Source of the DNA: Thermoplasmatota archaeon
Lineage (GTDB): Archaea > Thermoplasmatota > Thermoplasmata > UBA10834
Direction: 5' to 3'
Assembly (NCBI GenBank): GCA_016930135.1
Contig: JAFGHM010000036.1
Coordinates: 1-37,760 of the forward strand
DNA length: 37,760 nt
Under the pieces are notes generated by a model that was given only the letters and a program-made list of their open reading frames with translations, ran no database searches and had not been told where the DNA came from. Both the position numbers and the translations under genes were made by a program. This document shows, one piece after another, positions 2,328-17,205 of this stretch (position 1 is its first letter; each line of letters opens with the position of its first letter).

Positions 2328-3122
2328 TCAGTCTCTGACCAGGTATCTCTCGAGTGTTGCTATCTTCCAAGCCAGCAGGTATATGCTCTCCTTCTCCAGG
2401 AGCGATTCGACGTCTTTGAATTCCTCTCTCAGGTCCCGGACCGCCTGCGCGTGAACGTCCTCGGGCACAGGCCATAGGCTGGAGAATATCCTCTTCTCGA
2501 ACCCTACGATCCGGTCCTTCGGGCTCACTATCTCCTCGTGGACGGCCACGAGGGAAATCAGATCAGGCTTCAGCAGGTCGCCGAGCTCCCTCTCGCGCAG
2601 ACCCGGGTGGCGGACCTCGTAACCGAGTTCCTTGCACCTGCCTTCGTAATAGTTCCTCATCTCCTCCGCTGGGGAGTCCTCGCGGAACGAGGCCACGGAG
2701 ACGTATCTTTCAGAGGTCACCCGCGAGATCTCCTCGAGCGCGCACTTCCACTGAGAGACCAGATGCAGCAGGTGCACGCTCATCGAAACGCCGAATGACT
2801 TGTCCATGAACGGCATCCGACAGACGTCTGATATGACGAGCCCCTCGAGGCCTTTCGCCCTCGCCTTCTCCAGCATCTTCTCCGAGATGTCGATCCCCAC
2901 TATCTCCTGCCCTCTGATGTGGAGCGGTAGCGCGAATCTCCCGGTCCCCACGCCGACATCGAGGATCGGCTTCCTGCTGTCGACGACCATCTCGAGGGCG
3001 TCTACCACCTGCTCCATGGTGTCCTTAGGGAGCGACCTAGTTATGTCATACCTGTCCGCAATCCTGTCGAAAGACACTCTCAATTCGGAACCTCTCCTCG
3101 GTGTCCGTTTCAAGCTCCCCAT
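2328..3122 (-). CDS. Class I SAM-dependent methyltransferase
   Basis: About 264 residues from the ATG at 3122. The Rossmann-type methyltransferase core shows motif I as LDVGVGTGRF, an acidic ribose-binding position in VGIDISEKM, and a motif II/post-I region ISDVCRMPF, which is the Methyltransf_11 pattern (UbiE/small-molecule type). The substrate cannot be told from sequence. An in-frame ATG exists 51 bases further upstream at 3173, but a TATA-like CATAATG overlaps it, so initiation at 3122, after GCGGGG, is preferred. The gene is divergent from the secreted peptidase and upstream of the RPA genes on the same strand with a 143-base gap, so it is probably a separate transcription unit. Confidence 0.75.
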   Translation of the reverse strand: MGSLKRTPRRGSELRVSFDRIADRYDITRSLPKDTMEQVVDALEMVVDSRKPILDVGVGTGRFALPLHIRGQEIVGIDISEKMLEKARAKGLEGLVISDVCRMPFMDKSFGVSMSVHLLHLVSQWKCALEEISRVTSERYVSVASFREDSPAEEMRNYYEGRCKELGYEVRHPGLRERELGDLLKPDLISLVAVHEEIVSPKDRIVGFEKRIFSSLWPVPEDVHAQAVRDLREEFKDVESLLEKESIYLLAWKIATLERYLVRD

Positions 3123-3233
3123 CCCCGCATTAGGATAATTGCCTTTTGCCTTCCGGCACTCATTGGAAAGCATTATGTCAGAAGGAGGCAGATACGGGGA
3201 GTCAGTATCAATGGGGGGAGTGCGCTGAGATAT

Positions 3234-4466
3234 GTGAGATTAAACTGGATAGTGTGCGTCGCGATCGTCACCGGGCTCGTTGTCCCGATGAGCGTGGTCG
3301 GTGGCCCCGCCACGAAAGAAGTGACGACGAAGGACTGGACTCTGATGATGTATTGGGATGCGGACAATAACCTCGAGTTCTGCACTGAATATGCGTTTGT
3401 CATCTGGGAGAAGGCCCTCCCGTCCAATGACAGGATCAACATCGTCGTGTTGGTCGACATACTGTCCTCCGAGGGCATCTCGATATACGATATAGTCGAC
3501 GGCAAGAGGCGGCTAGTGGCCGCCTGGCCCGAGTCCGATTCATCCGATCCGGCCACGCTGACCCAGTTCGTCTCCTACGGCCTCAGCAAGTATCCTGCAG
3601 ATAAGACCATGCTTGTGGTCCAGGATCACGGCTACGGCTGGAGGGGCGTGTGCCAGGACGAGACCAGCGGTGACACGATCATGTCAATAGACGGGCTCGC
3701 AGAGGCCCTCAATGCAGTCAAGAAGGACAACAAGGGGAAGGGGATCGACCTGCTCGCGTTCGATGCGTGTCACATGAACACCCTGGAGGTCGCCTACGAG
3801 CTCAGGGATGCCGTCTCGTACGTGGTGGCCTCCCAGAGCATGGTCCCGTACGACGGCCTGCCGTACGAGATGTTCCTGAACGAGCTGGTGGCGGAGCCGG
3901 ACATGGCACCAGCTGAGCTCGCTTCCAGGATAGTCCACGACTATGTGATGTTCTATAGCGACAAGAAAGCCTACGAACACATCTACACCTATAACCAGGA
4001 CTTCTCGACCGTGGCAGCCTTCGACATGTCCAAGATGGCGGCGCTTGGCGGGGCGTTCATCGATTTCGCGGAGCAGCTACTGCCGCTCGTGGCGGAGTAC
4101 CGGTCCGAGATAGAAGGTGCGAGAGGAGCGGCCCAGGTCACTCAGTGGGCAAACAGCGCGGGATACGAATGGATGCCCGATGTGTACGCGTTCATCGAAG
4201 GCCTCGAGGGGATGGATGAGCCGCTCGATGCGGCCATCTCCTCTTGGAAGGCAACCTTCGCGGATGCGTTGGTCGCGGAGGGGCACAGCGAAAGGATGGG
4301 CACGAACGTACACGGCCTGAACTTCTGGTTCCCTCCCAGCTTGGCCCAATACAACTCCCTGAGCTGGACCTGGGCCCAGCAGTTCGTGTACCACGACATG
4401 TGCCTCGACATCGTCAGCGAATCGGCCTGGGTGGACTGTCTGATGGAGTACTACCTCGGCTCGTAG
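3234..4466 (+). CDS. Exported clostripain-like cysteine peptidase (family C11)
   Basis: 410 residues. Residues 1-24 form a signal peptide: a short positive start, a hydrophobic run (about 5-22) and a small-residue cleavage zone near Gly23/Gly24-Pro25, so the enzyme is probably secreted or surface-anchored. The caspase-like fold of family C11 is indicated by the strand WTLMMYWDADNNLE, the catalytic His132 in DHGYGW, and the catalytic Cys179 in FDACHM, both following hydrophobic beta strands. C11 enzymes usually cleave after Arg or Lys; specificity here is unknown. The start is GTG at 3234 with a G-rich stretch (GGGGGGAG) about 14 bases upstream, a little far for an ideal ribosome-binding site. 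A terminator-like hairpin follows the stop. No partner genes are adjacent. Confidence 0.9.
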   Translation: MRLNWIVCVAIVTGLVVPMSVVGGPATKEVTTKDWTLMMYWDADNNLEFCTEYAFVIWEKALPSNDRINIVVLVDILSSEGISIYDIVDGKRRLVAAWPESDSSDPATLTQFVSYGLSKYPADKTMLVVQDHGYGWRGVCQDETSGDTIMSIDGLAEALNAVKKDNKGKGIDLLAFDACHMNTLEVAYELRDAVSYVVASQSMVPYDGLPYEMFLNELVAEPDMAPAELASRIVHDYVMFYSDKKAYEHIYTYNQDFSTVAAFDMSKMAALGGAFIDFAEQLLPLVAEYRSEIEGARGAAQVTQWANSAGYEWMPDVYAFIEGLEGMDEPLDAAISSWKATFADALVAEGHSERMGTNVHGLNFWFPPSLAQYNSLSWTWAQQFVYHDMCLDIVSESAWVDCLMEYYLGS

Positions 4467-4487
4467 GGCGCCCGGATCAGATCTTCA

Positions 4488-4530
4488 GCCCCGAGGGGAA
4501 GAGGGGAGTTCCTCCCGGGGCGCCGTTTTC
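4488..4530 (+). terminator. Hairpin plus T-run after the peptidase gene
   Basis: GCCCCGAGGGGA (4488-4499) and TCCTCCCGGGGC (4510-4521) pair imperfectly, with two mismatches, around a ten-base loop. The stem is followed by GCCGTTTTC. It lies 22 bases past the peptidase stop and separates it from the promoter of the ACT-domain gene. Archaeal termination relies mainly on the T-tract, here only four T residues, so the hairpin's role is inferred. Confidence 0.5.
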
Positions 4531-4662
4531 TGTCATGTGTCAGCCATTTCGAATACGGTTCGATAGCCTTGGAATAGCATGGTACATTTTGTCATATACC
4601 AGTCGACGGACTCAATGACTTCCAGGAGGGTATCTCATCGATGCTCGGAATCCAAGCCATAC

Positions 4663-4673
4663 AGAATAAATAG
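4663..4673 (+). promoter_or_regulatory. TATA-like box for the ACT-cooT-cooC unit
   Basis: AGAATAAATAG lies 45-55 bases before the ATG at 4718. It would give a start of transcription near 4697 and a short leader containing GGCGGG just upstream of the ATG. Weak consensus match. Confidence 0.4.
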
Positions 4674-4717
4674 ACAACAGCACAATACCAGTCCATCGGC
4701 ACAACGGCGGGAATTCG

Positions 4718-5122
4718 ATGACCACTGAATTCGAACTGGCACTGTCCGGAGACAGCAAGGACCTCCTCGACATCGTCGCGCTGCTCGCGGAGCAGCACAT
4801 AAACCTGGACACCATCGCGACCGCGAAGATAGAAGACAAGTATTACGTCAGGTTCCTCACGGGGTGCGATGAGGAGTGCAGACGTGCGTTCATGAAGGCG
4901 GATCTGCCATTCAAGGAGAGGAAGGTGCTTGTCGTGGACATGTTCAACAGGCCCGGTCAGTGGGTGCGCGCGGCCAAGTACCTCGTGGACAGCGGGGTCC
5001 AGCTCAAGACCAGCTACCTGCTTGGGCAGAAGGGCGACCGGCTGAGGTTCGTCTTCGTGGTGGATGACTACGAGAAGGCCAAGAAGCTGACCGGGCAGAT
5101 AGCCGACTGCTCCGTCGACTAG
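4718..5122 (+). CDS. Tandem ACT-domain protein
   Basis: 134 residues made of two ACT-like beta-alpha-beta-beta-alpha-beta units, about residues 3-65 and 68-130. The first begins FELALSGDSKDLLDIVALLAEQHINLDTI, here quoted only as its opening FELALSGDSKDLLDIV; the second begins VLVVDMFNRPGQWVRAAKYL, with the Gly-Pro-containing turn where ACT domains bind small ligands. No catalytic domain is attached, as in the COG4747-type regulatory proteins. It is the first gene of a run with cooT (41 bases downstream) and cooC, so it probably senses an amino acid or other small molecule, or acts as a partner protein, for the CODH/ACS region; that role is inference from position. Start chosen at the ATG preceded by GGCGGG. 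Confidence 0.75.
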   Translation: MTTEFELALSGDSKDLLDIVALLAEQHINLDTIATAKIEDKYYVRFLTGCDEECRRAFMKADLPFKERKVLVVDMFNRPGQWVRAAKYLVDSGVQLKTSYLLGQKGDRLRFVFVVDDYEKAKKLTGQIADCSVD

Positions 5123-5163
5123 GCGTAGGTTCTTGTAAGCAAGTGCTCCTCAGGGTATGTGCT

Positions 5164-5361
5164 ATGTGCGAGTCCGCAGTCTATCTGATCAAGGGTTCGG
5201 AGAAGCTACTGGTTATGCCTGAGGCCGCCAGGTTGCTGGTCTCTGGCAGCGACATAACCTGCGTTGACACCCTCGGAGACCTGAAGACGGTCAAGGACGT
5301 CGAGCTTGCCGAGGCGAACCTGGTCAAACACGAGATCATCCTCAGGCCAAGGACGGCCTGA
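5164..5361 (+). CDS. cooT: CooT family nickel-binding/CODH accessory protein
   Basis: 65 residues starting MCESAVYLI. CooT proteins (PF10133 family, also annotated as predicted RNA-binding) are small SH3-like barrels of about 65-70 residues that begin Met-Cys. In the Rhodospirillum rubrum protein that Cys2 binds Ni(II) and the gene sits with the CODH genes. A GTG seven codons upstream (5143) extends the frame, but the ATG at 5164 puts Cys at position 2 and has AGGGT about seven bases before it, so it is preferred. It is followed five bases later by the cooC start and lies upstream of the CODH/ACS fusion, which fits a role in nickel handling. The family call relies on size, the Met-Cys start, and context. 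Confidence 0.8.
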   Translation: MCESAVYLIKGSEKLLVMPEAARLLVSGSDITCVDTLGDLKTVKDVELAEANLVKHEIILRPRTA

Positions 5362-5365
5362 TCGC

Positions 5366-6163
5366 TTGGGGTTCAAGGTGGCCGTCTCGGGCAAGGGCGG
5401 CGTGGGCAAGACGACCATAGCCGGGTCTCTGGCCCGGGTCTGGGCGAGGGAGGGTTCCAAGGTCCTCGCGGTGGATGCCGACCCTGCGGCTCATCTGAGG
5501 ACCGTCCTCGACATATCCAGGGAGGACATGCCCCAGCCGATTTCGTCCGAATTGGACCTGATAGAGGAGCGGACAGGTGCCAGACCGGGCACGAGCATAG
5601 GCCCGTTCTTCAAGCTCAACCCTAGGGTCGACGACATCCCAGAGAGGTATTCCAGGGTTGGTGCGGATGGCGTTCGCCTCCTCGTGCTGGGCACTATCAA
5701 GGCAGCTGGGAGCGGTTGCTTCTGTCCCGAGAACGCCCTGCTCAGGAGTTTGCTGGAGCACATCGTGCTGGACCGGGACGAGTTCGTGGTGGTGGACATG
5801 GAAGCCGGCCTCGAGCAGTTCGGCCGATCAACCTGCAGGGGCGTGGACCTGCTGCTGGTCGTCGTGGAGCCTGGATCCAGGTCCGTGGAAACCGCCGCGA
5901 GGATAGCCGAGCTCGCGCGGGAGATGGGCGTACGCGAGATCGCAATAGTGGCCAACAGGGTCGCCAGCTCCGCTGAGAGGGATTCGGTCGAGCACGCCCT
6001 GTCCGAGCGCGGCCTCAGCCTGGCGTGCGCACTGCCCCTCTCCACGGCCATGGCCTCCGCGGACCTTGCTGGCAAGCCGCCGTTCTCCGAGCCAGGCGCG
6101 GAGGCTTGGATCGAGGCCGTCCGACAGCTTTCGAACGAGATTTCAAAGAAGATGAAGCCCTAG
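5366..6163 (+). CDS. cooC: CooC-type nickel-insertion ATPase for CODH
   Basis: About 265 residues. A MinD/ParA-type deviant Walker A motif, GKGGVGKTT, lies at residues 9-17, followed by VDADPAAHL. A Cys-x-Cys pair, CFC (residues 118-120), matches the CxC that in Carboxydothermus CooC1 binds Ni or Zn between the two subunits of the ATP-dependent dimer. A Walker B-like VVVDMEAG occurs near residue 144. Function: ATP-driven maturation of the C-cluster of Ni-CODH. No ATG lies near the conserved start. TTG at 5366 (giving MGFKVAVSGKGG) agrees best with family N-termini; GTG at 5378 is the alternative. The frame opens further upstream inside cooT, but that part looks like out-of-frame translation. 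A second CooC lies at 12995-13753. Confidence 0.88.
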   Translation: MGFKVAVSGKGGVGKTTIAGSLARVWAREGSKVLAVDADPAAHLRTVLDISREDMPQPISSELDLIEERTGARPGTSIGPFFKLNPRVDDIPERYSRVGADGVRLLVLGTIKAAGSGCFCPENALLRSLLEHIVLDRDEFVVVDMEAGLEQFGRSTCRGVDLLLVVVEPGSRSVETAARIAELAREMGVREIAIVANRVASSAERDSVEHALSERGLSLACALPLSTAMASADLAGKPPFSEPGAEAWIEAVRQLSNEISKKMKP

Positions 6164-6551: not shown

Positions 6552-9500
6552 GTGACCGCTGGCGAGTGCGAGAGACCGCAGGGCGAGAAGGCGCGAACTG
6601 ACAAGAAGTCGAAGTGGTCGTGCGACTTCTGGGACGACTCATGCACAACGATGTTCACCGACCTCCACGCGTCCGGCATAGAGACGCTTCCGGACAGGGT
6701 GGCCAACCAGGGCGCTCAGTGCAGGTTCGGCCAGCTTGGCCTCTGCTGCAGGATATGCCTCCAGGGTCCATGCAGGATCAACCCGATGGGCAAGGAGCCC
6801 ACGTGCGGCATATGTGGCGCCCGGGACTACACGATAGTCTCGCGACATCTCGTCCGCATGATCGCAGGGGGCACGGCATCGCATTCGGGCCATGGCAAGG
6901 AGATAGCACATGTCCTTCACGCGGTGGCCAAGGGCGAGGTCAAGGACTACAAGGTGACGGACGAGGCCAGGCTTGAAGCCCTTGCGAAGAAGCTCGGCAT
7001 CCAGGTCGCTGGCGGGGGCAAAGCGCTGACCGAGGCAGTGTCCCTCGGAGCGCTCGAAGACTACTCCAGGTTCACGCACCAGCCGCTCTCGTTCTTGGAG
7101 AGCCGGGTGACGCGAAAGAGGATGCGCTTGTGGGACACGCACGGCGTCCTGCCATCCAACATAGAGACGGCGATTTCGGATGTGATCCATCGGACGGCCA
7201 TGGGGGTCGACGCCGACCCGATACCTCTCCTCTTCGGAGGCATCAAGTGCTCCCTGGCTGACTACACGGGCGCTCAGATATCCTCTGACCTGAGCGATGT
7301 CTTGTTCGGCACCCCGAAGCTGGTCTTGAGTCGGGCGAACTTGGGCGTGCTCGACGAGAAGTGTGTGAACGTCGCCGTCCACGGCCACAACCCCGTCCTG
7401 AGCGATATAATCGTGGATGCCGCGAGGGAGCTCAAGGACATCGCGGTCAAGGCCGGGGCAGAGGGGTTCAACATCGTGGGCATCTGCTGCACGGGTAACG
7501 AGACCCTGATGAGGAAAGGCATCCCGCTGGCCGCGAATGTGACTTCCCAGGAGCTGGTGCTCCTCAGCGGCCTGTTGGACGCCATGGTGCTCGACTACCA
7601 ATGCTTCATGCCGTCGCTAACGTACCTATCAAGGTGCACACATACCAGGATCATAAGCACGGAGGAGATAGCCCGGCTGCCCGGGGACACACACATCGAG
7701 TTCGTCCCGGAGAGGGCAATGGCCTCCGCCCGCGACGTCCTGATTCTCGCCGCAGAGGCGTACAGACACAGGGGTAAGACCAAGCGTTTGCCGTCCGTCC
7801 GTCCATCAAATGTGATGGCCGGCTTCAGCGTCGAGCAGATGGAGGAGCTGTTCTCGAAGAAGAACCCGGAGGACCCGTTCCAGTTCCTGGTCGACAGCAT
7901 CGTCAAGGGCCGGATCAGGGGGTTAGGGCTGTTCGCTGGGTGCAAGAACGTGCGCGCGAAGGAGGATTCGGACGTCCTCATCATCGCCCGCGAGCTGGCG
8001 AAGAGAGACGTGCTTCTTCTCACCACTGGGTGCAACGCGATCGAGCTCGCCAAGGGCGGGTTCATGGACCCCGCGAAGACCAAGGAGTTCGCGGGCGAAG
8101 GACTTCAGTCCTTCCTCGCGGAGCTCGCGGAAGCATCGGGGCTGGACGGCCTCCCGTGCGTGTGGCACATAGGCTCCTGCGTGGACAACCCGCGCTACTC
8201 GAACCTCGCCACCGAGGTCGCGAACAGGATGGGGGTGGACATACACCAGATACCCTTCGTTGCCATGGCGCCCGAGGCGATGCACGAGAAGGCCGTCTCC
8301 ATTGGCACATGGGCGGTCACCATGGGCTTCCCGGTGCACGTCGGCACGATGAACTACCTGTACGGGAGCACGCTCGTGACCGAGGTGCTGGAGAACACCG
8401 CGAGGGACGTCTACGGAGGGTATTTCATATTCGAGGAGGACGCCCACGAGGCCGCCAAGAGGCTCTATTCGGCCATCGAGTACAGGCGCTGGCGCCTGGG
8501 CTTGACGGACCCGGAGCTGGAGCGCGCCTCCCACTACGTGCCCGCCAAGGATAAGATCACCAACCAACAGCTGTTCAAGATGGCCATCGAGGGCTCGATC
8601 ATTGCGACCGGGTACGCGGACGTTCTCCTGAGCAGGGCTCTCAGGAAGTACGGTCCCGACCAGAAGATCGAGTTCCCCGAGACGGGCTACCAGCTCCCGA
8701 GCCTGTTCGCATGGCTGGGAAGGGACTGCACGCGCCTGGGCGACCTGCCTATGCTGCTTGGCGAGGCGAGGGGCAAGATAAGAGAGGAGCCGACCTTCGA
8801 GGCCGCGGTCGCCTCCGGGGAGGCGACCATGATCGCAGCTGAGATAGTCGAGGCGCTGAAGTACATCGAGACCCAGACGCCCTACGAGGGCACCATGTAC
8901 TGCGGGTTCGTCCCGGACAGGATACTGAGGCAGCTCGGGATCGCATTCGTCGACGACACGATCCCCGGGGCTGCGGTGTTCGTCGGGCGTGCGAGCGACC
9001 CGAAGAAGCTCGCGGCCATGATCAGGGACTGCCAGAACAAGGGCATGCTCATAATCGCCACGTACGACATCATCAAGCAGCTCAAGGACGAGAACATCTC
9101 GATGGGCCTCGACCGGATGCTCTATCCCGTGGGCGAGTTCACCCAGGCCATACACGGCCTCAACTTCGCCATCAGGGCGGCGCTCTCCTTCGGGGGCATC
9201 CAGAAGGGCGACCGCGAGGGGCTGTACAACTACCTCTGCAAGAGGCCCAAGGTGTTCGTCCTACAGCTCGGGCCTCTCGACTTCATCAAGGTCGCCGCTG
9301 AGTTCGCGGTCATGTTCAACGGCTCGCCCACGATCACCGATCAGGACGTCGAGCCCATCCCGGACAAGTACGTCGTCCAGAAGAACATGGACGAGATGAT
9401 CGCGACCGCCATCGAGGTCAGGGGCTGCAGGATCAAGCTGGGAGCCATCAGCCTCCCGGTGCCCTACGGTCCGGCCTTCGAGGGCGAGACAATCCGGCGG

Positions 9501-10688
9501 CCGGACATGTACATAGAGGCCGGCGGCCCGTCCAAGACGCTCGCGTTCGAGATGCTCAGGATGCGCAGTTCGGAGGAGGTCGCAGACGGCAAGGTGACGC
9601 TGATAGGCAAGGACGTGGACGAGATGCCCGAGGGCGGCTCGACGCCCCTTGGCATAATCGTTCATGTGTACGGCAAGAACATGCAGTCGGATTTCGAGCC
9701 CGTGCTTGAGCGCAGGTTCCACCAGTTCATCAACTTCGCGGAGGGCGGGTGGCACACGGGCCAGAGGAACCTGCTCTGGGTCAGGCTGGGCAAGTCCGCC
9801 TTCAAGAACGGGCTGAGGCTGAAGCACTTCGGGGACATACTCGTCACGAAGCTGAAGCAGGAGTTCGGGGCGATAGTCTCCAAGGTGGAGGCGTTCATCA
9901 TCACGGATGAGACGGAGCTGAGGAAGCACCTCGATGAGGCCAAGACAGCCTACGCCGAGAGGGACGCGAGGATAGCTACCCTCACGGACGAGAACGTCGA
10001 CACGTTCTACACCTGCACGCTGTGCCAGAGCTTCGCCCCTGGGCATGTGTGCATCGTCACTCCTGAGCGGCTCGGGCTGTGCGGGGCGATCAACTGGCTG
10101 GATGCGAAAGCCTCCTTCCAGATAGCCCCAACGGGCCCGAACAGCCCCGTGGCGAAGAAGGAGACCATAGACGCCGTCAAAGGCCAGTGGACGGGTGTCA
10201 ACGAGGCCGTCGCAGAGAAGACCCATGGCAGGCTGCAGAAGTTCAGCGCGTACACGATGGTCGAGGACCCGATGACTTCGTGCGGCTGCTTCGAGTGCAT
10301 CGTCGGCATATCTCCCGACCTCCAGGGGGTCGTGGTGGTCAACCGAGAGTTCCCTGGCATGACGCCTCTTGGCATGACCTTCTCCACTCTTGCTGGCTCC
10401 GTCGGGGGCGGCATACAGACGCCCGGGTTCATAGGGATCGGCAGGAAGTACCTGATCAGCAAGAAGTTCATCAGCGCGGACGGCGGGTTCCTTCGGATAG
10501 TCTGGATGCCGAAGGACCTGAAGGAGGCCATGAAGGATGACCTCAAAAAGCGCGCGGATGATATCGGGATGCCGGATTTCGTTGACAAGATTGCGGACGA
10601 GACGGTCGCCAAGACGCCTGAGGAGCTCGTGGAGTGGATGACCAAGGTGCAGCACCCGGCGATGACGATGGAGCCTATGATCAAGTGA
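6552..10688 (+). CDS. acsAB: Fused Ni-CO dehydrogenase (AcsA/CooS) and acetyl-CoA synthase (AcsB)
   Basis: 1378 residues in one uninterrupted frame, starting at GTG 6552 behind AGGAG. Residues 1-650 are a bacterial-type Ni-CODH. Numbered as here, Cys57 and Cys65 (D-cluster), Cys66, Cys69, Cys74 and Cys88 (B-cluster), His279, Cys313, Cys351, Cys464, Cys494 and Cys543 (C-cluster), His111 and Lys580 all fall at the spacing of Carboxydothermus CODH-II. Residues from about 655 to 1378 are a full-length AcsB including its N-terminal CODH-binding domain. The A-cluster ligands Cys1155, Cys1158, Cys1167, Cys1177, Cys1244 and Cys1246, plus Phe1161, reproduce the Moorella AcsB spacing exactly (constant offset 649). 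The enzyme would reduce CO2 to CO and condense it with a methyl group and CoA. In characterised bacteria these are two proteins in an alpha2beta2 complex; here almost no linker separates them. acsD and acsC follow. Confidence 0.95.
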   Translation: MTAGECERPQGEKARTDKKSKWSCDFWDDSCTTMFTDLHASGIETLPDRVANQGAQCRFGQLGLCCRICLQGPCRINPMGKEPTCGICGARDYTIVSRHLVRMIAGGTASHSGHGKEIAHVLHAVAKGEVKDYKVTDEARLEALAKKLGIQVAGGGKALTEAVSLGALEDYSRFTHQPLSFLESRVTRKRMRLWDTHGVLPSNIETAISDVIHRTAMGVDADPIPLLFGGIKCSLADYTGAQISSDLSDVLFGTPKLVLSRANLGVLDEKCVNVAVHGHNPVLSDIIVDAARELKDIAVKAGAEGFNIVGICCTGNETLMRKGIPLAANVTSQELVLLSGLLDAMVLDYQCFMPSLTYLSRCTHTRIISTEEIARLPGDTHIEFVPERAMASARDVLILAAEAYRHRGKTKRLPSVRPSNVMAGFSVEQMEELFSKKNPEDPFQFLVDSIVKGRIRGLGLFAGCKNVRAKEDSDVLIIARELAKRDVLLLTTGCNAIELAKGGFMDPAKTKEFAGEGLQSFLAELAEASGLDGLPCVWHIGSCVDNPRYSNLATEVANRMGVDIHQIPFVAMAPEAMHEKAVSIGTWAVTMGFPVHVGTMNYLYGSTLVTEVLENTARDVYGGYFIFEEDAHEAAKRLYSAIEYRRWRLGLTDPELERASHYVPAKDKITNQQLFKMAIEGSIIATGYADVLLSRALRKYGPDQKIEFPETGYQLPSLFAWLGRDCTRLGDLPMLLGEARGKIREEPTFEAAVASGEATMIAAEIVEALKYIETQTPYEGTMYCGFVPDRILRQLGIAFVDDTIPGAAVFVGRASDPKKLAAMIRDCQNKGMLIIATYDIIKQLKDENISMGLDRMLYPVGEFTQAIHGLNFAIRAALSFGGIQKGDREGLYNYLCKRPKVFVLQLGPLDFIKVAAEFAVMFNGSPTITDQDVEPIPDKYVVQKNMDEMIATAIEVRGCRIKLGAISLPVPYGPAFEGETIRRPDMYIEAGGPSKTLAFEMLRMRSSEEVADGKVTLIGKDVDEMPEGGSTPLGIIVHVYGKNMQSDFEPVLERRFHQFINFAEGGWHTGQRNLLWVRLGKSAFKNGLRLKHFGDILVTKLKQEFGAIVSKVEAFIITDETELRKHLDEAKTAYAERDARIATLTDENVDTFYTCTLCQSFAPGHVCIVTPERLGLCGAINWLDAKASFQIAPTGPNSPVAKKETIDAVKGQWTGVNEAVAEKTHGRLQKFSAYTMVEDPMTSCGCFECIVGISPDLQGVVVVNREFPGMTPLGMTFSTLAGSVGGGIQTPGFIGIGRKYLISKKFISADGGFLRIVWMPKDLKEAMKDDLKKRADDIGMPDFVDKIADETVAKTPEELVEWMTKVQHPAMTMEPMIK

Positions 10689-10707: not shown

Positions 10708-11661
10708 ATGGATTTCGATGTGCCGAAGGAGCGGTTTGCTGGTAAGATCAGAGAGGTTGTGATAGGCGCGACAAAGGAGAAGGGCGGGACCCGAGGTTCC
10801 AGCATCGTCGTCGGGGGGTCCGACGGTTTTCCCTTCCACAGGTTCGAGAGCCAGATGCCGCACATGCCGGTCGTGGTCATGGATGTGGTGGACACCCCCA
10901 GGCTCGTCCCCGAGACGCTGCTCGGCTCCATGGGCTCGTTCGTCAAGGAGCCCGTCGAATGGGCCAAGAAGTGCGAGAACGAATGGAAGGCGGACGCCCT
11001 CCTGCTGAGGCTCGCCTCGGCGAACCCGGAGGAAGAGAACAGGTCGGTAGAGGAGTGCGAGTCCCTCTTCAAGGAGGTGCTGAAATCCGTTTCGTTGCCG
11101 ATGCTCGTCTACGGCTGCGGGTCCGAGGAGAAGGACGCGAAGCTGATGGAGGCCGTGTCGAACGCCGGCAAGGGCGAGAGGCTCTTCCTGGGCCTCGCCG
11201 AGGAGAAGGCCTTCAAGTCGCTGGCGGCGGCCTCGATGGCGAACGGACACGGCATAGTCGCTTTCTCCAACCTCGACATCAACCTGGCCAAGCAGATGAA
11301 CATACTCCTGCTCGACTTCGGCGTGAAACCGGAGAACATCATCATCGACCCTCTCATGGCTGCGCTGGGCATGGGCCTCGAGTATTCATATTCCGTCGTC
11401 GAGCGGCTCAGGCAGGGGGCGCTCTCTGGCGACCCCGTCCTTCAGATGCCCATCATATGCGACAGCTCGTGCGCATGGAACGTGCCCGACATACTGGAGG
11501 AGGATCCGAAGAAGGGCGACATCCTCCAGAGGGGGATCCTCTGGGAGGCGATTACGGCCTACGGCGCGATCGTCGCAGGCGCGGATCTCGTCATCATGAG
11601 ACATCCGGATGCGGTCGCGCTCTTCAGGCAGACGCTCAATGAACTGACAGGAGGGGGATGA
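10708..11661 (+). CDS. acsD: Corrinoid iron-sulfur protein small subunit AcsD (CdhD homologue)
   Basis: 317 residues with a TIM-barrel pattern and the family's usual length (about 310-325). Segments typical of the family are the opening that leads to SSIVVGG, the region MPHMPVVVMDVVDTP, the strand NIIIDPLMAALGMGLEYS, and the late CDSSCAWN. AcsD pairs with AcsC to bind the cobamide that carries the methyl group between methyl-pterin (via AcsE) and the A-cluster of AcsB. The ATG at 10708 follows GGGGGGA at good spacing, 19 bases after the fusion gene's stop. Its stop overlaps the acsC start as ATGA, so acsAB, acsD and acsC are one operon. The sequence resembles the bacterial AcsD more than the archaeal CdhD in context, but this was not tested by phylogeny. 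Confidence 0.9.
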   Translation: MDFDVPKERFAGKIREVVIGATKEKGGTRGSSIVVGGSDGFPFHRFESQMPHMPVVVMDVVDTPRLVPETLLGSMGSFVKEPVEWAKKCENEWKADALLLRLASANPEEENRSVEECESLFKEVLKSVSLPMLVYGCGSEEKDAKLMEAVSNAGKGERLFLGLAEEKAFKSLAAASMANGHGIVAFSNLDINLAKQMNILLLDFGVKPENIIIDPLMAALGMGLEYSYSVVERLRQGALSGDPVLQMPIICDSSCAWNVPDILEEDPKKGDILQRGILWEAITAYGAIVAGADLVIMRHPDAVALFRQTLNELTGGG

Positions 11662-12992
11662 CCTTGCCGACAGCGATGGAGATTTACAAGCTGCTGCCCA
11701 GGAAGAACTGCGGGGAGTGCAAGTTCCCGACATGCCTCGCCTTCGCCATGCAGTTGGCGAACCAGAAGGTGGCACTTGAGGCATGTCCGTATGTCACTCC
11801 AGAGGCCAAGGCGATCCTGGAGGAGAGCGGCGCGCCGCCAGTGAAGCTGGTCACATTCGGCTGGAGCGGCTCGCCCGCGAAGATCGGGGACGAGACCCAG
11901 CTCTTCAGGCACGACAAGACCTTCTACCATCCGACGGTGCTCGGGGTCATAGCCGACGACTCCGAAGGGCTCGAGAAGATGAAGGCCAAGATGCAGGATG
12001 CGAAGGCCACATACTACGAGCGTGTCGGCCAGATCATCAGGGTAGATTCCGTCGCGGTGAGGCACTCGAAGGGCAGCCCGGAGGACTTCATCGAGGGCGC
12101 GAAGTACGCCTCGACCTTGATCGTCCCTGTCGTGCTGATGACCGAGGACCCGAAGCTGATGTCCGAGGCCGCGGGCGCTTGCGCTCAGGCGAGGCCCTTG
12201 CTCTACAGGGCCACGCAGGAGAACTTCGACGCCATGGTGCAGGTCGCGAAGGCCAGCGGCTTCCCGCTCGTCGTCGGCGGAGCGGATGACATGGGCAAGC
12301 TCGCCGAGCTGGCGGACAAGGCGAAGAAGGCGGGCGTATCGGACATCGTTCTCGAACCCAAGGGGTCATCTGCAGGCCGCATGCTCGAGCAGATGACGAT
12401 CATCAGGCGCGCGGCAATCAAGAAGAAGTTCCGCCCCCTCGGATACCCGACGATAGCGGTCCTTGGCAGCTCCAAGGAGGACAAGATGAAGGCCGCTCTC
12501 GGGGTCATGAAGTACTGCTCAGTGGTGCTCATGGACCAGATGCCCCCGGAGTTCGTGTATCCGCTCATGACTCTCAGGCAGAACATATTCACGGATCCGC
12601 AGGTGCCGATACAGGTCAAGGCGGGCCTGTACTCAGTTGGCGAGCCGGGACCGAAATCGCCAGTGCTGCTCACCACGAACTTCTCGCTCACCTACTTCAC
12701 GGTCCGCGCGGATATCGAGAAGAGCAAGATACCTGTATGGCTTCTCGTGGTGAACACGGATGGCCAGTCCGTCATGACCGCCTTCGCCGCGGGCAAGCTG
12801 ACGCCGGAGTCCGTCGCCGCACTGATCGAGTCAGAGAAGGTCAAGGAGAAGAGCACGAGGAACGAGATAGTCATCCCGGGCATGATCACCAGGATGAGCG
12901 GGAAGCTCAACGAGCTGACGGACATGAAGGTGGTCGTGGGCCCGAGGGAGTCATCGGGCCTCCCGAAGATGCTGAAGTCGATCGCAGCTTGA
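11658..12992 (+). CDS. acsC: Corrinoid iron-sulfur protein large subunit AcsC (CdhE homologue)
   Basis: 444 residues, matching the 440-450 of AcsC. The N-terminal [4Fe-4S] motif is Cys18, Cys21, Cys26 and Cys43 (start of motif CGECKFPTC), the spacing known for CoFeSP large subunits, where the cluster reduces inactive Co(II) to Co(I). A central TIM barrel and a C-terminal cobalamin-binding domain follow; the C-terminal part contains PVLLTTNFSLTYF and the late glycine-rich segment expected there. Overlaps acsD by four bases (ATGA) with GGAGGGGG as ribosome-binding site. Its stop is separated by two bases from the stop of the convergent second cooC. Acts in the cytoplasm with AcsD, AcsE, AcsV and the fused CODH/ACS. 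Confidence 0.93.
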   Translation: MTLPTAMEIYKLLPRKNCGECKFPTCLAFAMQLANQKVALEACPYVTPEAKAILEESGAPPVKLVTFGWSGSPAKIGDETQLFRHDKTFYHPTVLGVIADDSEGLEKMKAKMQDAKATYYERVGQIIRVDSVAVRHSKGSPEDFIEGAKYASTLIVPVVLMTEDPKLMSEAAGACAQARPLLYRATQENFDAMVQVAKASGFPLVVGGADDMGKLAELADKAKKAGVSDIVLEPKGSSAGRMLEQMTIIRRAAIKKKFRPLGYPTIAVLGSSKEDKMKAALGVMKYCSVVLMDQMPPEFVYPLMTLRQNIFTDPQVPIQVKAGLYSVGEPGPKSPVLLTTNFSLTYFTVRADIEKSKIPVWLLVVNTDGQSVMTAFAAGKLTPESVAALIESEKVKEKSTRNEIVIPGMITRMSGKLNELTDMKVVVGPRESSGLPKMLKSIAA

Positions 12993-12994
12993 GC

Positions 12995-13753
12995 TCAGCC
13001 CCGGAGCCTCTCAGACTCGACCGCCTTCGCGACATCCGAGAACGTGGGGTCCGTCCTGGGGACGTCCGCCAGCGACTCGGTCTCCTCGGCCCTGGAGAGC
13101 ATCATGCCCGACCTGCGCACCCCGTAGACCGCATGGAACCCCTCAAGGCTGCTCACGGGCGGGCCCGAAGCTCCCGGATCGAGCGAGTTGAACACGAGGG
13201 CCTTGCGGGATATCTGGAGCTTCATCTCGTCCGCAAGCTGGGATATCCGCCGTGCGGCCGACTGTGAGCTCTTTGTTCGGTCGCACAGCACGAACAGCAC
13301 GTCGGACGCCCTCGTGGTACGCCTGCTCAGGTGCTCCATCCCGGCCTCGTTGTCTATCACCACGTACCTGTACTTCGTCGATAGGGAGTCGATTATGGTC
13401 CTCAGCAGGTTGTTCACGTAGCAGTAGCAGCCCGGGCCCTCCTGCCTCCCCATGGTCAGCAGGTCGAAGCCGGACCCCTCCGTTATGGCGAGGCGTATCT
13501 GATAGTCCATGTGCTCCTGCTTGGACACCCCCGGGGGCAGCTCCTCCTCGCTGCGCGCCAGCAGCTCCTCGCGTATGCCGCCCAGAGTCCTTGAAGGCTC
13601 AGTGCCGAGCTTGGTTCCGAGGTTCGCGTTGGGGTCGGCATCGACGGCGAGAACAACCTCCTTCGTGGATTCGTGCAGGTGCCGCACTGCGAGCGCGGCA
13701 AAGGTGGTCTTGCCAACCCCGCCCTTGCCTGCCACGGCCAGTGTGAGGGTCAC
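12995..13753 (-). CDS. cooC: Second CooC/AcsF-type nickel-insertion ATPase
   Basis: 252 residues. Deviant Walker A GKGGVGKTT at 9-17, VDADPNANLG at 38-46, and a nickel-binding Cys-x-Cys at Cys109/Cys111 in GCYCYVNN, followed by the Walker B-like VVIDNEAGMEHLSR. This set defines the CooC/AcsF branch of MinD-like ATPases that load nickel into CODH or ACS. The gene starts with GTG overlapping the acsV stop as GTGA, so the two are translationally coupled. Compared with the first CooC (5366-6163), it keeps the canonical VDADPNANLG and EAGMEHLSR motifs more closely, which fits the AcsF-like branch serving the acetyl-CoA synthase; this division of labour is a guess. Convergent with acsC. Confidence 0.9.
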   Translation of the reverse strand: MTLTLAVAGKGGVGKTTFAALAVRHLHESTKEVVLAVDADPNANLGTKLGTEPSRTLGGIREELLARSEEELPPGVSKQEHMDYQIRLAITEGSGFDLLTMGRQEGPGCYCYVNNLLRTIIDSLSTKYRYVVIDNEAGMEHLSRRTTRASDVLFVLCDRTKSSQSAARRISQLADEMKLQISRKALVFNSLDPGASGPPVSSLEGFHAVYGVRRSGMMLSRAEETESLADVPRTDPTFSDVAKAVESERLRG

Positions 13754-15651
13754 GCTTTACCCCCGGAGCCCCCGACGCTCGGGAACTTGCTTGTATCAGT
13801 ATGCGGCAGGAAGAGCGAAGACGAGAACTCGTCATAGAACTCGTTGTCCACGCTCAGCTCCAGATACGTCATCCTCTCGAAGATGTCCTCGGCCTCCTTC
13901 CTTCGCTTCTTCGAGAGCAGCGCAAGCCTCGCCCCGCCGAGCGCGCCATTGCCGATGAACCTGTACTTCTTCCTCGGCAGGTCGGGGAACATCCCGATCG
14001 AGATGGCCCGTTCGATGTCCAGGTGGTATCCGAACCCTCCGGCTATGAAGACCCTCGAGAGGTCTTCGAGCGACTCGCCCGTCTTCCTGAGCAGGACCGC
14101 GCAAGCGCCGTATATGGCGGCCTTAGTCCGGATCAGGTTCTGCAGGTCCGCATCGGTGATAACCATGTCCGCGGCCCCGCCGCCCCCGAGCTTCGGACCC
14201 CGCTCGACTACGAATTCGAGGCCGGACTCCGACGGCCTCGTCCTGCCATCGCCGAGCTCCTGGATCCTCGCCTTCCTGTCGATGATTCCGTGCGTGAACA
14301 TCTCCGATATGAGGTCTATCAGCCCGGAGCCGCAGATGCCGAGGGGAGCCCCATCTCCAATCACATGGTAGGAGGTTGATAGGTCGTCGTTGATCCTCAT
14401 GCGGTCGATTGCTCCTTCCATCGCCCTCATGCCGCAGGACACCTCCGCCCCCTCGAACGCCGGCCCGGCGGAGCAGGAGCACGCCATCATCCATTCCTTT
14501 CCCCCGAGGACCACCTCTCCGTTCGTCCCCACATCGATTAGGAGCGAGAGATTCTTCGACCTGTGCATGCCGCTCGCCAGGACGTCCGCGACAATGTCCC
14601 CGCCGACATAGCCCGCGCGAGACGGGAACAGCAGCACCTTCCCCGCCGGGTTCATAAGCAGGCTCAGGTCTCCTGCGCTCTGCTGGGGCAGATGATGGGC
14701 GACCGGGACATACGGCTCGAGGCGCACATGATTGGTTGACAGGCCAGCGAAGAAGTGAGTCATCACCGTGTTGCCCGCGACTGATGCCGAACAGATGTCC
14801 CTCGCTGGAATCTCCACTCCTGACCTTGCGGATTCCCCGGCCAGGAGGGATGCGATGCAGGAGTTGATAGTCTCCTTTGCCAGGGACGAGAGCTCCTCTA
14901 CTCCCTTCTCCTCGCTGTGCATCATCCGTGCTATGACGTCCTCCCCCCTCGAGATCTGCCTGTTGTAGTCGGAGGCGGTTCCGAGCACCTTGCCCGAGAG
15001 CAGGTCCACGAGTTCGACGACGACCGTGGTGGTGCCTATGTCTACTGCGATGCCCAGGAGCCTGCTGCGAGTATCGCCCGGGTCCACCCTGACTATCTCG
15101 GGCTCCCCGGAGAGCCCAGAAAGAGTGATGGTGACCTTCCATCCGCCCTTCCTGATGGCATCAGGGAGCTCTCTTAGAGCCTCGAGCGTAACGGAGAGCG
15201 AGCGCTTTCCCAGAGTCCGCATCAGCCTTTCCATGTCTGCGGTGTTGTCGGCCAGCGTCGCCTCGGGCACCTCTACGAACACTTTGCTGCTCCACGGAGT
15301 GATTGGCTCAGGGACCTCCTCAACGGTGGTTGTCAGTATCTGGTGCCTGGTGAGCCTGGAGCGGGGAAGCACATGCACCCTCACGTCGCCCTGCGGCTTC
15401 GCCAGGCAGGCCAGCACGATCCCCTCCCTCCTCTCTGACTCCGTCAGGAGAGCGCTCTCGTCGGCTGAGTAGGAGCCTGTGATCCTTACCTTGCACCTGC
15501 CGCACTTGCCCTTGCCGTCGCATACGGAATCGATTGGTATCCCGGCTGCCTGACAGGCATCAAGTACCGTCGACCCTTCAGCGACAACGACTTCCCTCCG
15601 GTCTGGCGCGAAGACGACCTTGTAGCCCCTCCTAGCCAACTCCCCTGCCAT
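13750..15651 (-). CDS. acsV: Reductive activator of the corrinoid iron-sulfur protein (AcsV/RACo)
   Basis: 633 residues, the usual AcsV length. The N-terminal [2Fe-2S] ferredoxin-like domain has Cys44, Cys50, Cys53 and Cys82 (CDGKGKCGRC). A linker and middle domain follow, then an ASKHA-type ATPase domain from about 210, recognisable from GIAVDIGTTTVVVELVD, SVAGNTVMTHFF and LLIDVGTNGEVVLG, as in the RamA/RACo family (COG3894, DUF4445). It uses ATP to drive reduction of Co(II) in the corrinoid protein back to Co(I) when it becomes oxidised. Located back-to-back with acsE and coupled to the second cooC by a GTGA overlap. Its ATG at 15651 lies about 33-42 bases from a TATA-like GCTTTTTAGAC on this strand. 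Confidence 0.92.
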   Translation of the reverse strand: MAGELARRGYKVVFAPDRREVVVAEGSTVLDACQAAGIPIDSVCDGKGKCGRCKVRITGSYSADESALLTESERREGIVLACLAKPQGDVRVHVLPRSRLTRHQILTTTVEEVPEPITPWSSKVFVEVPEATLADNTADMERLMRTLGKRSLSVTLEALRELPDAIRKGGWKVTITLSGLSGEPEIVRVDPGDTRSRLLGIAVDIGTTTVVVELVDLLSGKVLGTASDYNRQISRGEDVIARMMHSEEKGVEELSSLAKETINSCIASLLAGESARSGVEIPARDICSASVAGNTVMTHFFAGLSTNHVRLEPYVPVAHHLPQQSAGDLSLLMNPAGKVLLFPSRAGYVGGDIVADVLASGMHRSKNLSLLIDVGTNGEVVLGGKEWMMACSCSAGPAFEGAEVSCGMRAMEGAIDRMRINDDLSTSYHVIGDGAPLGICGSGLIDLISEMFTHGIIDRKARIQELGDGRTRPSESGLEFVVERGPKLGGGGAADMVITDADLQNLIRTKAAIYGACAVLLRKTGESLEDLSRVFIAGGFGYHLDIERAISIGMFPDLPRKKYRFIGNGALGGARLALLSKKRRKEAEDIFERMTYLELSVDNEFYDEFSSSLFLPHTDTSKFPSVGGSGGKA

Positions 15652-15793: not shown

Positions 15794-16564
15794 GTGGTGG
15801 GAGAGCGAATAAACGGCCAGTTTCCGCAGGTTTCTAAGGCCATCGACGCAAGGGATGCCAAGTTCATACAGGACCTCGCTCTGGAGCAGATACGAGGGGG
15901 GGCTACGGTCCTCGATATCAACACTGGCCCCGGGAGGGACGACGGGCCAGAGGCCATGGCCTGGCTGGTAAAGGCCGTCCAGGACGTTGCGGACGTCCAG
16001 CTTTCCATAGACTCCCCCGGGCTGAAGGTGCAGCAGGCGGGCCTGGCCTCCTGCAAGAAGGACCCACTGATAAACTCAACGACCGCGGAGCAGAAGCGCA
16101 TGGAGAAGTTCTTCCCGCTCGCGGCGGAGCACAACGCTGAGATAGTCTGCCTGACGATAGATGAGAAGGGCATACCCAACTCAGTCGAGGGCAGGACTGA
16201 GATAGCCATGACGCTCCTGGCCAATGCCATGGACAAGGGCATACCCCCGGAGAAGGTGTACCTGGACCCGGTCGTCCTGCCCATATCCGCCACTCAGGAT
16301 CAGTGTCCGATCCTCTGCGAGGCCCTGACGAACTTCAGGGCCCTCAACACTCCGCCTCCGAAGACGATAGTCGGCCTGAGCAACGTGTCGAGCGGGGCTG
16401 AGGAGCGCAGCCTGCTTAACAGGACTTACCTCGCGATGCTCCTCGGACGCGGCCTGGACGCTGCAATAGTCGACCCGAACGACGAGGAGCTCATGAAGGT
16501 GGTCAAGGCTGCCGAGGTACTCCTGAACCAGAAGCTCTACGCCAATTCTTTCCTCAGAGCTTGA
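15794..16564 (+). CDS. acsE: Methyl-pterin:corrinoid iron-sulfur protein methyltransferase AcsE
   Basis: 256 residues (family about 260). It opens with VGERINGQF, the hallmark of pterin-binding MeTr proteins, and forms a TIM barrel that transfers the methyl group of methyltetrahydrofolate (or an archaeal pterin) to Co(I) of AcsCD. Seen conserved elements are LDINTGPG with Asp41 at the pterin site, SIDSPG, LDPVVLP, and GLSNVSSG with Asn197, corresponding to the catalytic Asn of Moorella MeTr. The start is one of two consecutive GTG codons (15794 or 15797) behind AGGGGGGAAG. AcsE is a bacterial-pathway component; archaeal CODH/ACS complexes normally lack it. A DUF3786 gene begins within its stop codon. 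Confidence 0.93.
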   Translation: MVGERINGQFPQVSKAIDARDAKFIQDLALEQIRGGATVLDINTGPGRDDGPEAMAWLVKAVQDVADVQLSIDSPGLKVQQAGLASCKKDPLINSTTAEQKRMEKFFPLAAEHNAEIVCLTIDEKGIPNSVEGRTEIAMTLLANAMDKGIPPEKVYLDPVVLPISATQDQCPILCEALTNFRALNTPPPKTIVGLSNVSSGAEERSLLNRTYLAMLLGRGLDAAIVDPNDEELMKVVKAAEVLLNQKLYANSFLRA

Positions 16565-17205
16565 GCTCGGGGGCGCCTTGCTTGGAACCCAAGAAGTCAG
16601 CCAACCTCGAGCCTCTGAGGGGCGCATGGGAGAGGGCGGCCTACCTGAACCCGAAGCACCTCTCGGAGACGCTGGACCTCTCCATGGTGCCCGGGACTAA
16701 GAAGCCGATTCTGCGGGTGATGGACAAGGACTGCTCTGTCGACTTCGAGTCGAGGACCATGAAGTATCTCGGCCCTGGAGACCAAGAGGTCCCACCCCAT
16801 CTGCAGATCCTCGCGCTGCACTATTTGGAGGGTGCGGGGAAGGCGCAGCTGGCCAACAGGCTGGTCACCTTCCGAGACTTCGAGGGAGGCGCCATCTACT
16901 ATCCGGCGTTCAAGGCCAGGACGATTGACGTCATAGTCAAGGAGTTCGGGGACAAGCCGGAGCTGCTGAGGCGCATAGGAGAGGCCATGAGGAGTGAGCT
17001 GGTCGATTTGGGCTCGGTCGGGTTCAAGGTGAACTTCTTCCCCCGGATGCCCGTGGTCGTCGTGCTTTGGCTGGGGGACGAAGAGGTCCCCGCGGCGGCC
17101 AACATGCTCTTCGATTCGAATGCGGGAAAGGTCCTGCCCACAGAAGACATATCTATCATGGGCGGCGCCCTGACGAGAAGGCTGGTGAAGCTCGCGAGGG
17201 CCTAG
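16561..17205 (+). CDS. DUF3786 protein coupled to acsE
   Basis: 214 residues. The central region (PPHLQILALHYLEGAG, then LVTFRDFEGGAIYYPAF, and a late LWLGDEEVPAAANMLFD) is the pattern I associate with DUF3786 proteins, which occur with corrinoid and acetyl-CoA pathway genes in anaerobes. Biochemical function is unknown. There is no signal peptide, membrane segment or metal-binding cysteine cluster. The frame begins at TTG 16561 overlapping the acsE stop as TTGA; a second TTG seven codons later (16582) is an alternative. Tight coupling suggests a joint role with AcsE, perhaps in methyl-pterin or corrinoid handling, but nothing in the sequence shows a reaction. Confidence 0.7.
   Translation: MSSGAPCLEPKKSANLEPLRGAWERAAYLNPKHLSETLDLSMVPGTKKPILRVMDKDCSVDFESRTMKYLGPGDQEVPPHLQILALHYLEGAGKAQLANRLVTFRDFEGGAIYYPAFKARTIDVIVKEFGDKPELLRRIGEAMRSELVDLGSVGFKVNFFPRMPVVVVLWLGDEEVPAAANMLFDSNAGKVLPTEDISIMGGALTRRLVKLARA

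Follow-up and report, generated by a model that had tools for sequence, protein, structure and literature searches.

The window analysed here, 37,760 nucleotides from the genome of an uncultured, RBG_13_57_23-like Thermoplasmata archaeon, encodes both a carbon monoxide dehydrogenase (CODH) and an acetyl-CoA synthase (ACS) in a single open frame of 1,378 codons with a GTG start. In the Wood-Ljungdahl pathway CODH/ACS is the central enzyme, and it also serves as a model of how gases are channelled. The fusion gene is present in one copy in its own genome (1.83 Mb, 125 contigs) and sits in a bacterial-type carbonyl branch that reads cooC, fusion, acsD, acsC, cooC, acsV, acsE (Table 1). The upstream CooC/ParA-type ATPase occupies the equivalent position in the family f1 relatives checked, acsD lies immediately 3' of the fusion in nearly all relatives, and the order fusion-acsD-acsC-(cooC-acsV)-acsE is retained in these f1 relatives and, for the most part, in other families. 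The acsV/RACo-like protein scores 593 bits against NF040756, below that model's cut-off of 800. Upstream of the cluster, a clostripain-family peptidase (window 3234-4466) is conserved in part of f1.

Table 1. Features of the fusion gene and its surroundings, in window coordinates.
Feature	Position	Strand	Basis
ACT-domain protein	4718..5122	+	conserved neighbour in family f1
CooC/ParA-type ATPase, probable nickel-insertion maturation factor, upstream	5306..6163	+	domain matches
acsAB, single-chain CODH-ACS fusion, 1378 aa	6552..10688	+	open frame; TIGR01702 and NF040764; 23 intact genes
CODH half, residues 28-651, B/C/D ligands complete	6633..8504	+	family models, ligand alignment, AF2 model
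Linker, residues 652-671	8505..8564	+	alignment; pLDDT 87-95 around linker
ACS half, residues 672-1378, bacterial AcsB-like N-terminal CODH-binding domain	8565..10685	+	family models; CODH_A_N 693-772
A-cluster ligand region: C1155, C1158, C1167, C1177, C1244, C1246	10014..10289	+	ligand alignment
acsD, corrinoid iron-sulphur protein small subunit	10708..11661	+	family/domain matches
acsC, corrinoid iron-sulphur protein large subunit	11658..12992	+	family/domain matches, neighbourhood comparison
Second CooC/ParA-type ATPase	12995..13753	-	family/domain matches, neighbourhood comparison
acsV/RACo-like reductive activator of corrinoid protein	13750..15651	-	RACo Pfam domains complete
acsE-like methyl-tetrahydrofolate:corrinoid protein methyltransferase	15794..16564	+	NF005719 above cut-off
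DUF3786 protein overlapping acsE end	16561..17205	+	domain match

Both halves of the protein pass the cut-offs of their NCBIfam models: residues 28-651 score 643.9 bits against TIGR01702, the anaerobic CODH catalytic subunit (cut-off 478), and residues 679-1377 score 956.5 bits against NF040764, the ACS alpha/beta model (cut-off 800), bearing out the claim of a first-pass annotation that one frame carries a whole CODH and a full-length ACS. Pfam places Prismane/CODH at 64-631, CODH_A_N at 693-772, CdhC at 968-1122 and ACS_CODH_B_C at 1134-1377; the ACS half is thus of bacterial AcsB type, full length and with its N-terminal domain. The closest solved structures by sequence are CODH-II (1su6, over residues 31-651) and the Carboxydothermus hydrogenoformans ACS (7zkj_B, over 672-1377). 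An AF2 monomer model of residues 24-970, spanning the CODH half, the linker and the first ACS domain, has a mean pLDDT of 86 and a pTM of 0.89, and by Foldseek its CODH half has the fold of solved CODHs (TMt 0.96, rmsd 1.6).

The first-pass annotation had described the two halves as joined with almost no linker; they are indeed directly joined in frame, but through about 20 residues (652-671). The junction is predicted to be ordered, with pLDDT values of 87-95. Among families the linker varies in sequence and, by whole codons, in length (for example KLDITDPEVERASHHVPAKEKVTKDQLFKMA in f1, LGLDNKYVVESGEPISQKRLFEMA in f30 and LGIDTDDDVVYWDGTTPADERKPITQKQLFKKA in genome G464), and the alignment holds no linker motif conserved across families. 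Linkers of the f16 type retain a 'YWxGxT' tail that is also found in split acsA.

With the CODH-II and Moorella ligand positions as the reference numbering, we find a complete set of metal ligands: C57 and C65 for the D cluster, C66, C69, C74 and C88 for the B cluster, H279, C313, C351, C464, C494 and C543 for the C cluster, and all six A-cluster cysteines at the constant offset of 649 from Moorella numbers that had been claimed for them. The acid-base residue K580 is also present. Ligands of all four clusters are retained in 23 of 23 intact fusions, and K580 is replaced by Arg in one fusion (G199). The third proton-path His, H99 of CODH-II, is Glu in family f1 (residue 117 of the window's protein); Glu or Asp also takes the place of the fourth in f20, f30, f32 and some f1 members.

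The host, whose identity the first-pass annotation did not know, is an archaeon: its genome matches the archaeal RpoB model and relatives with the same gene, RBG_13_57_23 among them, are recorded as Euryarchaeota or Thermoplasmata archaea. Its Wood-Ljungdahl pathway is nevertheless of the bacterial, folate type: formate-tetrahydrofolate ligase (FTHFS) is present in all six f1 genomes tested, while archaeal Mch and McrA were each found in none of the six, which together indicate a folate-type pathway in a non-methanogen. Compared with the bacterial CODH/ACS of Moorella (1MJG/1OAO), C. hydrogenoformans (7ZKJ) and C. autoethanogenum (6YTT), the window encodes the same pair of enzymes, complete in their ligands and including the domain by which AcsB binds CODH at its N-terminus, and carries the accessory genes acsC, acsD, acsE, cooC and acsV; it differs in its archaeal host and in its single chain with a linker of about 20 residues that is predicted to be ordered. 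The fusion therefore lacks the defining trait of bacterial CODH/ACS, separate AcsA and AcsB subunits in an alpha2beta2 complex, yet each half groups by sequence with the matching bacterial family, and the whole would resemble the bacterial enzyme in its working. Archaeal ACDS (CdhA/CdhB/CdhC/CdhD/CdhE) catalyses the same overall reaction but is further removed: its subunits are separate, its CdhA belongs to another CODH branch (the fusion scores 55.4 bits against TIGR00314, cut-off 781), its CdhC lacks the N-terminal domain, and it normally works with H4MPT, in contrast to the FTHFS-positive, Mch-negative f1 genomes.

As the first-pass annotation had suggested, we sought further one-chain CODH-ACS proteins and built trees for each half. 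Scans that covered 60 relatives as well as 400 genomes from the class and 390 from the phylum (overlapping sets, nearly all of metagenome-assembled genomes) yielded 23 intact full-length fusions in eight families of Thermoplasmatota. Within the class, f1 has eleven, f20 four, f16 and f30 two apiece and f32 one; f39, f58 and f63, elsewhere in the phylum, have a single fusion each. Compared half by half with the window's protein, the 23 show 50-89% identity; all their frames are open, and most lie beside acsD-acsC. In three further genomes the gene is incomplete, with a frame break within the CODH N-terminus (G010) or a truncation at a contig end (G004 and G014). Two same-genus drafts, both incomplete, gave no match; viral contigs held no relative, and plasmids matched only through an ACS of Acetoanaerobium, which is unfused, and a CODH of Ruminococcus. 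With 125 contigs and 85% completeness, the window's genome is a draft in which two genes might have been joined by faulty assembly or binning, but the same junction recurs in 23 assemblies from unrelated projects. Two of these, CP070748.1 and CP070732.1, are single-contig chromosomes, and we reject such an artefact with near certainty. The fusion is a real, long-lived natural variant of a carbon-fixing enzyme in at least eight archaeal families, and the retention of ligands, synteny and reading frame across them upholds the first-pass reading of a natural, functional-looking protein. Searches of the accessible literature returned no description of a CODH-ACS fusion. One published survey built its search profile from COG1614 (AcsB) sequences of 350-762 residues only (PMC13240472), and length filters of this kind would omit such fusions.

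In several lineages the CODH half has not stayed intact. Genome G300 encodes a fused protein (locus L068, 4725-8837) whose CODH half has lost the cysteines of the B and D clusters, the His and two Cys of the C cluster, and the Lys; this half shares only 44-46% identity with the closest fused relatives, against 74-75% for the ACS half, and is a pseudo-enzyme retained in frame. A second CODH gene is present in the same genome. Nine genomes examined from f20, f6 and f33 (L087-L095) instead carry an ACS with an N-terminal extension of about 290 residues. In the joint profile (hhalign probability 97%) the last 90 or so of these residues line up with the end of CODH, right to the border with ACS. 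A model of the extension, computed with no CODH sequence in the input (pLDDT 79), has CODHs for almost all of its top structural hits, over about 108 residues at an rmsd of 2.6-3.0 and a probability of about 1.0, with E-values of only 0.03-0.2. In the ACS tree these stump-bearing lineages and ACS-only lineages nest among fused ones, and many of their genomes also encode a CODH on its own, which shares about 40% identity with the window's. These patterns point to an old fusion whose CODH half has decayed repeatedly. The CODH half is dispensable in some other families, where it is split off, dead or a stump.

Separate, mostly overlapping acsA and acsB genes occur in three other families and one basal genome. 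In f15 the stop of acsA and the start of acsB overlap, behind a ribosome-site-like sequence (GGAGGTGAGGAGGAATGACC); in f19 (for example SOIM01000003.1) the genes are a few bases apart; in G409 (f45) they share one frame with a single TGA between them; and in G430 (f56) they overlap as ATGA. These are the nearest unfused relatives, with neighbours as in the window and 48-55% (CODH) and 55-71% (ACS) identity to its protein, and they differ in having two genes, overlapping or parted by a single TGA, in place of one. Three further irregularities were seen in ACS genes. G409 carries an intein-like insertion at the C1244-equivalent A-cluster cysteine (L124, G409:C36, ORF 2899-5568, minus strand). 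An ORF of G375 (L098, G375:C3, 4408-8010, minus strand) has an intein (Intein_splicing and LAGLIDADG) directly before the C1158-equivalent cysteine, and its frame is broken further downstream. In G162 (L085/L086, CP070767.1) acsB is divided, through either rearrangement or misassembly: its N-terminal ~170 residues follow acsA, and the remainder lies about 1.17 Mb away on the same chromosome.

The CODH and ACS trees concur on the main groups. In a joint CODH and ACS tree, in which G430 and the outgroup form long branches, G430 is basal, f45, f15 and f19 form the sister group of the f16-type fusions (90/95), and the two together fall inside the clade of all the rest (99/98), so that the tree needs at least two changes, a fusion and a fission. 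A topology constrained to keep every fused row together is not rejected (p-AU 0.063); with G414 left out of the group the value is 0.028. The main split group thus likely arose by secondary fission from within the fused clade, a grading that we set no higher because of the p-AU of 0.063 and the long branches of G430 and the outgroup. The split genes of f15 and f19 were also considered as the simple ancestor, a view weakened by the trees but not rejected outright by the AU test (p 0.063). An RpoB tree recovers the within-class groups but places G409 elsewhere, suggesting that some gene transfer probably occurred. The first-pass annotation had held that related genomes with the two genes apart would count against the fusion; such genomes exist (f15, f19, f45 and f56), but only as more distant relatives, and because the trees suggest that most of their split forms are secondary, they leave the fusion here standing.

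The fusion may alternatively have formed more than once, the split forms of f15, f19 and f45 being ancestral and the fused protein functional as proposed. The borderline p-AU of 0.063, obtained when fused rows form a single clade apart from every split row, is consistent with such a history, and split pairs that overlap as ATGA with a ribosome site would be an easy starting point for fusion; the two-change minimum on the joint tree, the decayed CODH stumps that sit on ACS in the fused register (f20, f6 and f33) and the split-acsA tail kept in f16-type linkers argue against it, and we regard repeated fusion as possible, at somewhat less than even chances. Two other readings concern what the chain does once made. 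The CODH half might serve chiefly as a scaffold, with CO supplied by a second CODH, as is likely in relatives such as G300, with its ligand-less half and second CODH gene, and in the genomes with a long ACS that retain only a stump; the window's own protein, however, keeps every ligand, and its genome (85% complete) gave no reported match to a second CODH, which makes a scaffold role here very improbable. Or a single translated chain might be cleaved in the linker to give an ordinary alpha2beta2 complex, with fusion merely equalising the amounts of the two subunits. The stretch between the halves is variable in sequence and length, as a cleaved segment could be, but its predicted order and its lack of a motif conserved across families make cleavage unlikely.

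We therefore return to the reading of the gene as one that encodes a functional CODH/ACS in a single chain, with bacterial-type AcsA and AcsB fused in frame, in an archaeon with a folate-based Wood-Ljungdahl pathway, a reading which the conservation of ligands and context makes highly probable. CooS-type CODHs work as homodimers that share the D cluster, so the natural unit would be a dimer of fused chains; by analogy, two chains dimerising through their CODH halves would form a covalently joined equivalent of the alpha2beta2 complex of bacteria. We propose that the C cluster reduces CO2 and that the resulting CO moves to the A cluster of the ACS half, where it would meet CoA and a methyl group brought by AcsCD, itself charged by AcsE and reactivated by AcsV; the pathway could run for carbon fixation or release. 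Fusion would impose obligatory co-translation, and a single chain means a fixed 1:1 ratio, as the first-pass annotation had it, with no free pool of ACS or CODH. Its further claim that fusion enforces CO channelling covalently is overstated, because the CO tunnel of known bacterial complexes already crosses a non-covalent interface and unfused complexes channel CO; that fusion might improve channelling is offered here as a hypothesis. The data show the fusion itself, its conservation, the ligands, synteny and pathway type, and the series of CODH decay; we infer the activity, dimer architecture and CO tunnel, as we do the direction of fission.

In origin, adjacent and probably overlapping acsA and acsB genes may have fused in, or on entering, Thermoplasmatota, the fusion then spreading mostly by descent with some transfer, most likely splitting in one group and losing its CODH half elsewhere. 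The full scenario, an old single-chain CODH/ACS acting as a linked dimer that passes CO in cis, later split once and elsewhere turned into a scaffold fed by another CODH, is put forward tentatively. A natural single-chain form makes the effects of the link on stoichiometry, assembly, ACS opening and closing, and CO leakage directly addressable. The series from intact fusion through fused-but-dead CODH and stump to no CODH at all is likewise a natural experiment on the extent to which ACS needs a CODH of its own, in a carbon-fixing enzyme that is one of life's oldest.
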